NCBI GenBank assembly: GCA_032821775.1
Contig: JAVLRN010000008.1
Span: 1,054,001 to 1,118,000 of the forward strand
DNA length: 64,000 nucleotides
Source of the DNA: Sanguinoderma infundibulare
Taxonomy: Eukaryota; Basidiomycota; Agaricomycetes; Polyporales; Polyporaceae
Direction of reading: 5' to 3'
This document shows, in pieces, positions 49,776-58,172 of the stretch. The position numbers and the translations under genes were made by a program. The notes beneath the pieces are model-generated. The model saw nothing but the letters and a program-made list of their open reading frames with translations. It made no database searches and was not told the DNA's origin. Positions within the stretch are counted from its first letter, which is position 1. Each line of letters starts with the position of its first letter.

Positions 49776-51305
49776 GGTGTATGCTGGTTAAGGGTATGAT
49801 GGCGGTCGTGAGATAAGGTGCGTCTTCGGTGGGAGCGGCGCGATAGGTGGTGCCCAGAGCGGGCGGGCTGGGTGGGCGCGCAATTCGGCAATGGCGCTAT
49901 GGACATGTGAATGCATGCGCAGGGGAACGCGATATACCAGGTGATCATAGTCCACAAGCTTGAGAACCGCGGCGAGTGTCGAGGTACCAGGAGAATGTGG
50001 GTTGAACGTGGGCACTAGATGCAGACCGTGTGAATCAAAATGCGATGACTAAGCATGTCTGTATCAGGACACGAGCGCAGGTGTGGAGGGAGAAAGGGTC
50101 TTGAGGTCGTCGAAACGAAGACATGCAAGCCGCGAATTGACTGCGTAGAGGTGAATATGCGAACAGAAGGCGTTCATTGAATCTTCCAAACTCTGAACGC
50201 TTACTAGTTGGCAGAATGTCGTTCCAAACCGGGCCACCGGCTCAGCCTTGCCCTACGAGAACATGCCACTGGTGTATGGTCCATGGAGGTCCAAACTGGT
50301 CACAGATCCTAGATTTTATGTAACGCGAGGTCGCCTAGAAGATTTCGATACTAGGCGGACGACCGGTACCCTCAGACTGTCCGATACTTCGCCATTCCAC
50401 TGGCACCTTTCTACACGGCAGTTGTACGGCTGTCAGCTGTCGAGAACTGGGACCGAAGGCCAACATTTGGTTTAGCCGAAAACGAAGTCAGACGACACCT
50501 GCACACGTAAAGAACTGAGCCGCCGCGTCTTCGACTGTATAGTCGAATCGGAGCCCCTGGAAGCCACCCCCTTGGCCCTCTGCAAGTCGACAAAGCCATA
50601 CCGTTTGAGCAGGACCTCATCCCCGATGCGCCGCGGCGCTCCGTGACTCATCGACCCTGTGGCACATAGACAACCCAGTTCACCCCGCCAAGCGAAATGA
50701 GCAAATGACCCTTCGTCAGGACAGAATTCGATCGACAACGACCTTCTCTTGTCCATCCGCGCAAGTGGACAAAGCCAGGAGGTTTGTGCAAAACGCCATC
50801 CACCATGCGCGCTCCGTGCTCGACCCTGCACGACCGAGTTAAGTACTTAGTAACCTCACCAAGCTCCGAGGAAATGGGCAAATGACGCAAGACTTCCTTC
50901 GTCAGCGCAGACTTATTTGATCGACATCGTCCACCTTCTCGTGTCCATCCACGGTTCGGCTGCTCGGACCATCCGTAAACACGACGATCGAGACCACCAG
51001 GAGGTGTACACCATGGCAGCACACGACCACGGAACTAGGAGGGACCGGACTTTAAATGACCCCCTTCCAAACTAATATAAGATTTAGAGCGCATGTATTC
51101 ACGAGGATATATAGAAGGCCCATCGAGATGGATATACGATACCGACAAGGAGACATCGACAAAGAAGCGCAGTATAATTATGTCACGACGAATATATAGG
51201 ATGTGTGCTTCCCCAAATAGCCGGTGAACTACCTGTCACTTGGAACTCCTCCACCAGGTCTTGTGCCCTCCTCCGAGCGCATCCTCCACAATCGCACCCC
51301 CTCCC
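49776..51305. other. Intergenic with local repeats
   Basis: No gene is recognised. The region 50530-51020 is made of imperfect repeats (listed). The right end is the 3' flank of the RNA-binding-like gene. Confidence 0.5.
50530..51020. repeat. Imperfect repeat array, about 2.5 units of about 180 bp
   Basis: Recurring blocks in the same order: CTTCGTCAG, GATCGACA, TGTCCATCC, GTGGACAAAGCC-like, then GCGCTCCGTG. The two better units start near 50636 and 50810, with a partial unit to the left. Short minus-strand frames here (GWTREG-RCRSN) are by-products of the repeat. Confidence 0.7.
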
Positions 51306-54300
51306 TCACCCCTTTGACCCCGCGGCCTTGGCAGAGTCCCCATGACCCTGCGCCTTGTACTGGTCCATGACCTTCTTCGCGACCTTCTCCTGCCCCTGGC
51401 TAAGGCTCGAGAACGTAACCGGCAGCTCGAACTTCATGTTCCCGATCACGACCCACACTTTATGCCTCCTCTGGCCCGGCTGGTCCTTTGGCCCTTGGAT
51501 CTCGTGGCACCACTGCGGCGTTGGCAGCTTGTGCTGTGTGCAGTGATCTGCACATAAGACCCGGTCCGGCGTCAGCTCAGCGAGCTCCGAGCAAAAACAC
51601 ACGCAGCCACGAATGGGGCCAGAAATATACGCGTACGGCGGTCGACGCGAAAAAATGCATGGACGACAAGAAAAGACGTACCATAAAGCTCTTGCACGCT
51701 TGTCTTGGGCGTGGCCTTGATGGATACGACCTTGCCGGGGACCTTGGGCTTCGCGGGCCAAGGCGAGAGCGGATCAACTAACGGTGTAGATTTCGTAGGA
51801 GGGGTTGGCTGAGGTTGCATCGTCGAAAGCCCAGTTGGGGTCAACGGCAGAGGCGGAGGCGGAGGTGGGGCATGCAAAGGCGGCGGAGGAGGCGGAGGAG
51901 GAATAGAAGGCGGCGGTGGTTGCGACGGTTGAACAGACTGAGTGGGTGGTGTGGGTAGCGCAGGTTGTTGCATAGGCGTCACAGGTGGAGGCGGCTGCTG
52001 GTACTGAATCACCGGGCCAGCGCCAGGGGTAGTTGGGTAGGGGAACGCAGGAGTGGATATGACCGGAGGCATGTGGGGGGTCACAGGAGCAGGAGAGACA
52101 GTAGGAAGGTACGGCTGAGAAAGAGGAGTGGGATAGTTATATCCCGCTACCTGACCGTTGCCGGGCACAGGCGGATACCCAGCGGCGTATGGGTACTGCC
52201 GTTGAGGATACTGCACCGGTGCAGAAGGCACAACCGGCGCCGTCGCGTATGGAGGGTATGCAACGCTACCCGGCGCTGCTGCATTGGGTACGCTAAACGG
52301 CGTTATTGGCGGCTGCGCCGCCTGAGTCTGGTACGGGATAGGAATCTGCTGGGCTGGGGGGATCGCACCGTAGGCCTGGGAAGGTTGAACATTCCCAGCA
52401 GCGGCACCACCGCCGGCATACGCATACGACGAAGAATGGTGCTGCTGCTGTGGCGGCATCGGGACGCCCGGATACTGTATTGAAGGATGAGGAAGAGAAG
52501 GAATAGGAATGGGAGCAGGTGCGGGCTGCTGTCTCGGTCCAAATCGCGAGGGACCAGGACCACCACCGTTCCTAGATCCAGGCTTATATTGGTGGGGAGG
52601 GTAGGCGTTGTTGCCTGCCACCCCACCACCAAAGGGGCCTGGACCAGGAGCACTGGGGCGAGTTCGCTGCCAATTATGCTTCTGTTGCTGGCCGCCGTTC
52701 CATGAAGGCTTACTACTATTGCCATTCTGCTGGCGGCCACCATGAGGGCCCGGGCCCGAGTAACCGTAGCCGTGGTTCTGTCCAGGATCGAAACTGTGAC
52801 CATTCCCGTAACTGACACCAGGCCCACCATCATGGAAAGCGCCCCCCGTGCGCTGCTTCTTGTTCTGCCAGCTGCCCGGGGGTATGCCACCTGTGGTAGG
52901 AGCCCCATGACCATTGTGGCCCGACCGGTCGCCATTACCATAACCACCACCAGCGACGCCGTTGCCTAAGTCCCCGTGCTTTCGCTTCCTGTTCACGAAC
53001 TGCTGCTCCTGCTGAGCAGCGTACGGGACGTAGCCGGGCGGCGGCTGCTCGCCGTGACAGCGGAGAAAGTCGACGACGCCTTCCTGTACAGCGTGCTGTA
53101 TAACCGCGAGCTTCGCATCGTTCCGACTGCAGTACTCAGCAGGCACGGTGTACCGCCGCACCTGCTCAGAACCCGCGTTCGGTACGAGTTCGATGACCAT
53201 CGTCGCGCCACATGCTGCAGGGAGTAACCATTCCACCCGCACAAAGGCAGGGCAACAAGCTCAGCTGACTGACCGATGACGAGGAGAAACAGTGAAGCGA
53301 AAAGCAACTGACCATCCACATCCTGATCGTATTCAAATGCAAGCTGGATCCCAGGTCCGCGCACCTTGCGGTACTCCGCAGTGACGAGGGGCTGCAGGAC
53401 CTCGGAAACATGCCTCCGCGTCGCGGGCGACAGCTTGTCTTTGACCGCCTTGCCCACATCCCGGATGTAGTCTCCGATACCCTCAGACATAGCAAGTAAA
53501 CATACGGCTGCTTTCGCGTCCGTGCGCTTCGCGAAGCGTGCGTCGACGAGGTATGACTTGACTTGACCGGGGCGCTCGAGGCGGAGCAAGCACCCGTGAT
53601 CTGATACTTACGAGTCAGAAGACGAGACACCATGGCAGGTGAGGACACGCTCACAATTGTGTCGTGGGTCAACGGTCCAGACGAAGTTCGGGGCAATCTT
53701 GCCTCCTCGGGCTGACTGGATCGTCGTGTTCAGCCAGGCCGGACCGTTGATCTCTGCCGCATTGCGTCCCGCGGTAGGCTCTGGGAATGGTTCCGGAAGC
53801 GACTCGAAGAACTGTTGGAGACCTATAGGTGAAAATGCAGCAGTGTCCTCGACGACGTCTATGTCAGTGTCAGAACGTGTCCAACTCTTGATGTAGTCGA
53901 TGACGCCATCCTGGAGAGCTATATCTGCGCATGCTTTCCGAGCCTCGACGACGCTAGCGTAAATGGTGTTGACAGAGTAAACCCGTGAATTGCGCGGAGC
54001 GAGACGGATCCGGAGAGCACACCCTTGAGCTGTCAATCCATCCGTTCAGTCATTTTGCCCACGCAAGTATTAAACAATGACTTACTTCTGCCGAACTTGG
54101 GTTCATTGATGTTCAACCAGAAAGGCTTTACACGTCCATCAGTCCACTCGAGGCAGCACTTCTCGATTGCCTTGACGGATTCGTCCATCTCGAGCGGGTT
54201 GGTGGACTGGCCCAATGTGACAGCTGACGAAGACGGCTCTCCATCAAGTTCACCGCAAATGAACTCAATAGCGCCGGTTGAGATAGCGAGGGTGCAAACA

Positions 54301-54774
54301 CTAGCTTTCGCGTCATACTTGCGGCCGTATATCGTAGGGGAGGCGTATGTACGGGTAGAACCGTTAGGTCTGGTAACGGTGAGGGTACAGCGCTTGCCTG
54401 CAAGAACGGACGTCGGACTATGCGTGGAAGAATAGACGATTTGCGAGAAACGCACCGTGAGTAAGAGTGTCCTCCTCGTATTCAAACTTGAGCGGTTGGG
54501 TGTTCCCAAACGCCTGTTGGCATGCTTGATGGATCCGTGCCACTGCCTTTGGAATCGTCGTCTCGGTCTCCTGCGCCGTTATCGGTTGTGATTGTGGCCC
54601 GCTGCTGGAAGTGCTAGGCAGCGATTGGATGAGGGAAAGATCATTGAGGTAATGGAGGACGGGGATCGCATCGTTGCGGAGAAGCGCTTCAGAGACACGC
54701 GCAAATGTAGGAGGATCGACGTCCATGAGCGAAGGATTCGGAGGATGGGACGAGCCGGAGGCAACAACTGCCAT
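51306..54774 (-). CDS. Multi-module dsRNA-binding-like protein, exon-duplicated
   Basis: A 1022-residue protein. Exons (complement): 54456..54774, 54086..54397, 53655..54029, 53313..53600, 51682..53214 and 51306..51547. The start is MAVVASGSSHPP at 54774. The C-terminal exon completes a good double-stranded-RNA-binding-like fold: SVQELYDHCTQHKLPTPQW, then HKVWVVIGNMKFELP and EKVAKKVMDQYKAQG. Before it lie about 430 residues rich in Gly, Asn, Pro and Gln with polyproline runs (disordered, able to phase-separate by composition). The N-terminal 470 residues hold four copies of a beta-beta-alpha unit, each with an aromatic-rich strand, a GC-L-like strand, a Tyr strand, then a D-A-K--V---A---G-I-FI helix. 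All five introns are phase 1, four of them at the same place in the unit. RNA binding is inferred and the family name is unknown. The gene is intact. Confidence 0.8.

Positions 54775-56194: not shown

Positions 56195-58172
<1,978 letters not shown>

Follow-up and report, generated by a model that had tools for sequence, protein, structure and literature searches.

What kind of protein does a gene encode in which four related units are each interrupted by an intron at the same place, and how did that arrangement come about? The question is raised by a locus of the basidiomycete Sanguinoderma infundibulare, in a stretch of 64,000 nucleotides (contig JAVLRN010000008.1, positions 1,054,001 to 1,118,000 of the forward strand) that is referred to here as the window. 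The gene model built from the window has one minus-strand gene (54774-51306) of six exons, coding for 1022 amino acids (aa) plus a stop codon. Units 1 to 4 come after a short N-terminal part, and a Pro-, Gly-, Gln- and Ala-rich tail leads from them to a C-terminal domain (Table 1). Gene structure, homology of the units, predicted fold, conservation and the common intron site are computed results. Our reading, to which we give a probability of about one half, is that the protein is a multivalent scaffold for RNA and protein made of non-canonical double-stranded RNA-binding domain (dsRBD) folds, most likely with an accessory role in RNA silencing, and that the array of units arose from an ancestral unit that already carried the intron.

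The four units are mutually homologous, all six pairs being aligned by hhalign with E values of 4.7e-12 to 1.2e-15 and probabilities of 97.5-98.6. A preliminary description of the locus had claimed that each unit is crossed by a phase-1 intron at an equivalent place, and the gene model, the hhalign alignments and a common alignment column bear this out: the codons split by introns 1-4 are those of residues 107, 211, 336 and 432, each three codons before one column of the alignment (C110, C214, C339 and A435; several homologues carry Cys at the A435 position). All five introns of the gene are of the GT..AG type and all five are in phase 1. The exons between introns 1 and 4, of 312, 375 and 288 bp, have the lengths first given for them and are symmetric, as is the 1533-bp exon between introns 4 and 5. 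Intron 5 is not a copy of introns 1-4, because it is sited in helix 1 of the C-terminal domain, a domain that the unit profiles did not pick up in hhalign comparisons. No DNA repeats between the units were found in a repeat search with a minimum of 20 nt, so the duplications are old, and the gene illustrates clearly how an intron position common to four copies of a repeated domain can outlast their similarity as DNA. Duplication of exons and duplication of whole units are indistinguishable, since the exon is the unit circularly permuted, so that either route yields the same gene.

It might be supposed instead that the introns entered the already duplicated units independently, each at a preferred sequence. 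Preferred insertion sites do exist in general, but the exon bases at the junctions of introns 1-4 (ACG/G, GAA/C, ATT/A and ATG/C) are without a common proto-splice pattern, and the chance of three more introns falling at one phase-specific site is small, roughly 7e-8, or 7e-4 with a slack of +/-3 codons, assuming about 240 possible sites. Inserts in the homologues point the same way, and we regard separate insertion as very improbable. Among 54 homologues aligned to the gene, inserts of at least five residues in the unit bodies, taking the gene as reference, are limited to four places, in one protein each, and all lie no more than three residues from an intron site. The unnamed metagenome protein P0050 has inserts of 17, 24 and 18 residues at introns 2, 3 and 4, respectively, and P0052 has a 6-residue insert near intron 1. 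Judged from the protein alone, P0050 is taken to be the translation of an unspliced frame that runs through its introns. With 51% identity over 400 positions to its best match among the aligned rows (P0022), it is no near relative of the window's species, and the sites of introns 2-4 look conserved beyond this gene. Some deletions in homologue gene models begin at intron sites (at 105 in P0036 and P0046, at 212 in P0017), and others are found away from them (e.g. P0017 at 368-375 and P0052 at 404-412).

Three protein searches identified 55 different homologous proteins, 50 of which carry a source name. Forty-nine of these 50 are hypothetical, uncharacterized or unnamed; P0020 is named a putative transporter, carries PF07690 and is taken for a fused gene model. 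The named homologues are from basidiomycetes, two of them from Calocera (Dacrymycetes). Class assignments were checked for Calocera and Botryobasidium; none of the matches lay outside Agaricomycetes and Dacrymycetes, in searches that each depended on common 5-mers and scored some 8,000 candidates. The closest three, from Ganoderma leucocontextum, Ganoderma sinense and Dichomitus, have 72-77% identity over residues 1-500 of the query. Mean identity over 54 homologues is highest for unit 3 (0.67; other units 0.48-0.56), and 37 of 55 rows yielded the C-terminal domain. The Suillus homologues P0024, P0026, P0027, P0029, P0035 and P0042 have printed ends with an EPEPGEV-type tail instead of a C-terminal dsRBD, which is either a true loss or the product of shortened gene models. 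No paralogue was seen when the 48.9-Mb genome was searched with homologue P0022, which matched this gene only, and no published description of the family was found in those parts of the literature that the search reached.

Each unit groups with its own counterparts in a tree built from 44 unit sequences of 11 proteins (support 100/98, 96/79, 96/85 and 91/93), and the four-unit array is therefore older than the split between Agaricomycetes and Dacrymycetes. Such a tree had been suggested as a way of dating the duplications. As to their order, units 1 and 3 are divided from units 2 and 4 with support of 96/81, but the approximately unbiased (AU) test does not exclude the other two pairings (p 0.36 and 0.41).

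In the predicted models of homologues, five of five domains (the four units and the C-terminal domain) have the dsRBD fold. Structural matches back this for units 1, 2 and the C-terminal domain, and for units 3 and 4 the assignment comes from DSSP and from their homology to unit 1. According to these models each unit is a complete dsRBD fold whose beta1 and beta2 strands are parted by the intron, and a separate fifth fold of the same kind, that of the C-terminal domain, stands after the tail. The units had previously been likened to the second half of a dsRBD; the kinship stands, and the half-domain does not, as the homologue models show the whole fold. The dsRBD-like character proposed for the C-terminus is upheld by both models and profiles, and the low-complexity Pro/Gly/Gln linker by its composition and by low values of the predicted local distance difference test (pLDDT), mostly <50, in the model of homologue P0003. 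A protein with five predicted dsRBD-type folds has been kept from Polyporales to Dacrymycetes with no functional name. The best Foldseek matches are TARBP2, Loqs-PB and R2D2, at identities of 9-17% and with a large root-mean-square deviation over several domains. In single-sequence searches of the PDB, unit 1, the C-terminal piece and the unit consensus all failed to match anything at E <= 10, and in PDB profile searches the unit profile returned PKR only (E 0.82) and the full-length profile a low-complexity ZipA row only. Some rows named RNase III or dsRBD were returned from a viral structure library, and none of 58 pattern stretches in viral contigs was confirmed.

Within this fold, the combined repeat resembles the DUF283 domain of Dicer (Dicer_dimer, PF03368), its best profile match, more closely than it does canonical dsRBDs. 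The combined unit profile scores 41.6 against DUF283 (E 7.3e-8, 68 columns) versus 22-23 against canonical dsRBD sets. The best shuffled control scored 17.2 in comparison with this profile, no new shuffled decoys having been made for the final canonical dsRBD comparison. The preference for DUF283 holds in leave-one-out runs, with scores of 32.9-41.9 when any DUF283 row is removed and 35.7-40.1 when any unit is removed, and units 1, 3 and 4 score higher with DUF283 as single-unit profiles too. The unit 1 structural alignment of P0003 has 21-26% identity to four DUF283-containing Dicer chains, compared with 7-17% for other single-domain rows. The C-terminal domain is dsRBD-like: its profile scores higher with dsRBDs than with DUF283, and its consensus matches DND1_DSRM (E 1.4e-4) and dsrm (E 0.043).

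Pfam cut-offs were reached in none of six window pieces and none of 20 homologues with printed scores. A full-length Pfam scan of 36 members, with bit scores printed for the first member only, gave dsrm at E <= 1 in five (best E 9.2e-4) and Dicer_dimer in one; when 27 single units were scanned, four gave dsrm and one Dicer_dimer. Below the cut-off, unit 1 of P0019 and of P0018 align with dsrm in full register, and the best printed score is that of unit 4 of P0038 against Dicer_dimer (E 3e-4, 21.2 bits). The consensus of unit 1 matches Dicer_dimer at E 0.056, and those of units 2, 3 and 4 match nothing. NCBIfam gave one irrelevant weak match, in three proteins. Pfam recognised no catalytic domain in the window pieces or homologues scanned, and there was no match to a helicase, RNase III or PAZ domain. 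No named family with such a layout was found, as the preliminary description had supposed, and no Pfam model passed its cut-off in the scored scans; as to whether the units match a described repeat family, their fold is a known one, but membership falls short of Pfam thresholds. With dsrm (PF00035) they have the fold and the weak unit 1 matches in common, but the scored scans are below cut-off and the GPxH motif of the beta1-beta2 loop is nearly absent, being found in 1 of 49 rows of unit 1 (Botryobasidium; GP in seven) and in 0/54, 0/55 and 0/55 rows of units 2, 3 and 4. An extra short helix, G-x-x-[DE]-[FYI]-[ILV], follows helix 2 in 170 of 217 unit rows (44/52, 41/55, 36/55 and 49/55 for units 1-4).

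Three points weigh against a DUF283-like silencing factor. The Dicer_dimer gathering score of 23.7 bits is missed, the combined consensus reaching 18.7 bits (E 0.0017). Unit 2 alone scores higher with dsRBDs than with DUF283. The structural run with P0022 is without the identity difference seen with P0003, canonical rows having up to 24%. The function, whether in silencing or in RNA granules, is a proposal.

Canonical dsRBDs grip the phosphate backbone with basic residues at the start of helix 2. In the corresponding KKxAK region, two or three basic residues are kept, in a shifted pattern, in units 1, 3 and 4 (in unit 3 in 98-100% of rows) and, with partial conservation, in the C-terminal domain, and unit 2 has a conserved basic residue at one site only. 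We propose that one ancestral unit already bearing the phase-1 intron was duplicated in tandem before Agaricomycetes and Dacrymycetes diverged. Units 1, 3 and 4 would contact RNA, unit 2 and perhaps the C-terminal domain would make protein contacts, and the disordered tail would let the domains reach several ligands, the whole serving as a multivalent scaffold or annealing platform for RNA and protein. By analogy with TRBP, Loqs, R2D2 and DRB4 in animals and plants, it would most likely be an accessory factor of silencing, as a partner of Dicer or of RNA-dependent RNA polymerase (RdRP). TARBP2, Loquacious, R2D2 and DRB4 likewise carry several dsRBD folds, without any recognised enzyme domain. 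Dicer-partner dsRBD proteins have two or three dsRBDs, and are without the four-unit DUF283-like array and the long Pro/Gly/Gln tail that are both present here. Unlike in Dicer, the DUF283-like domain occurs four times in tandem, helicase, PAZ and RNase III were not found beside it, and unit 2 fits it worse.

A narrower form of the proposal, that this is a Dicer-partner-like protein of mushrooms and related fungi in which four DUF283-type copies were multiplied with the intron already splitting them, and which serves for RNA annealing or for tethering Dicer or RdRP as a home-grown counterpart of the Dicer partners known from animals and plants, is tentative and on balance unlikely. Should the protein prove to be a Dicer partner, a missing piece of fungal RNA silencing would be supplied, and a DUF283-like domain would be seen to work as a repeat outside Dicer. 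DUF283 binds single-stranded nucleic acids and accelerates annealing, according to PMC4820750, and it binds Dicer partners, with a trace of double-stranded RNA binding in plant and none in human DUF283, according to PMC7827160. The latter report would also suit a protein-protein scaffold that barely touches RNA and uses the dsRBD fold for dimer or partner contacts, as reported for Arabidopsis DUF283. Protein-binding dsRBDs are indeed among the structural matches (DCL4 dsRBD2 with DRB4, DRB7.2 with DRB4, Staufen dsRBD5 and Loqs dsRBD3), but the conservation of helix-2 basic residues in three of the four units, nearly invariant in unit 3, makes this distinctly unlikely in our view.

The scaffold may also belong to RNA granules or messenger ribonucleoproteins apart from silencing, condensing structured mRNAs as a Staufen-type fungal factor, which we consider doubtful. 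Staufen likewise has five dsRBD-type domains per chain, and single Staufen domains are among the structural matches; spacing, tail and domain subtype differ from those of the protein here, and no Staufen sequence match was found in the PDB searches (unit 1, C-terminal piece, unit consensus and two profiles). A long disordered tail of biased composition and several domains of RNA-binding type are what such a scaffold would need, but the combined units are closer in sequence to DUF283, and a KRK cluster that may be a nuclear signal follows unit 4 within 70 residues in 46 of 55 aligned rows, hinting at the nucleus; neither point is decisive. The cluster is absent in both Calocera rows and in Botryobasidium.

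As for the silencing factor that we favour, three Dicer-like loci are present in the genome, along with many Piwi-domain and many RdRP matches. Most fungal Dicers are without a recognised dsRBD, although a divergent one is possible (survey, PMC12663654), and there is therefore room for partner proteins; no such partner was seen named in the available portion of that survey. The Dicer-like loci (C7:2671264-2673716, C5:3103899-3106055 and C3:1349894-1352663) have very different DUF283 sequences. Derivation of the unit intron from Dicer DUF283 is unsupported, as none of these loci, read by eye, has an intron at the equivalent site: DUF283 is one open stretch in C5, is split after beta2 in C7, and has an unbroken frame at the site in C3. 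Seven RdRP-domain matches with near-equal scores are spaced 17,661-17,665 bp apart (C1:4233209-4340990), with more on the short contigs C43 and C76; the series may be real, as tandem units of about 17.7 kb, or may have come from the assembly. In the dsrm search that was run on the genome, only two loci exceed the cut-off, L001 (C3:3028334), by eye of an RNase III/mL44-like type with a C-terminal dsRBD, and L002 (C1:2093382), by eye a DEAH-type helicase with an N-terminal dsRBD.

Table 1. Features of the minus-strand gene, in window coordinates
Feature	Position	Strand	Remarks
Whole coding region	51306..54774	-	6 exons, 1022 aa
Exons 1-6	54774-54456, 54397-54086, 54029-53655, 53600-53313, 53214-51682, 51547-51306	-	
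Unit 1, aa 76-153	54258..54549	-	predicted alpha-beta-beta-beta-alpha dsRBD fold; intron 1 runs through
Intron 1, phase 1, 58 bp	54398..54455	-	in unit 1, between beta1 and beta2
Unit 2, aa 179-258	53887..54182	-	predicted dsRBD fold, most of helix-2 basic patch missing; intron 2 runs through
Intron 2, phase 1, 56 bp	54030..54085	-	equivalent site in unit 2; footprint in P0050
Unit 3, aa 306-383	53458..53745	-	most conserved unit; predicted dsRBD fold, basic patch nearly invariant; intron 3 runs through
Intron 3, phase 1, 54 bp	53601..53654	-	equivalent site in unit 3; footprint in P0050
Unit 4, aa 396-486	53051..53421	-	predicted dsRBD fold; intron 4 runs through
Intron 4, phase 1, 98 bp	53215..53312	-	equivalent site in unit 4; footprint in P0050
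NRKRK basic cluster, aa 506-510	52979..52993	-	after unit 4; possible nuclear-localisation signal
Pro/Gly/Gln/Ala-rich tail, aa 490-920	51749..53041	-	predicted disordered, from composition of aa 381-880 and the model of P0003
Intron 5, phase 1, 134 bp	51548..51681	-	different site, in helix 1 of C-terminal domain; homologue P0001 diverges exactly there
C-terminal domain, aa 930-1003	51366..51721	-	predicted dsRBD type; spans intron 5

Two further observations concern the surroundings of the gene. Downstream of it, a 50-nt repeat occurs twice (50582-50631 and 50761-50810), the copies being 179 bp apart and 76% identical. An adjoining reading frame on the plus strand (56933-57172) matches the pyridoxal phosphate-dependent enzymes of Cys/Met metabolism (PF01053, E 2.3e-9).
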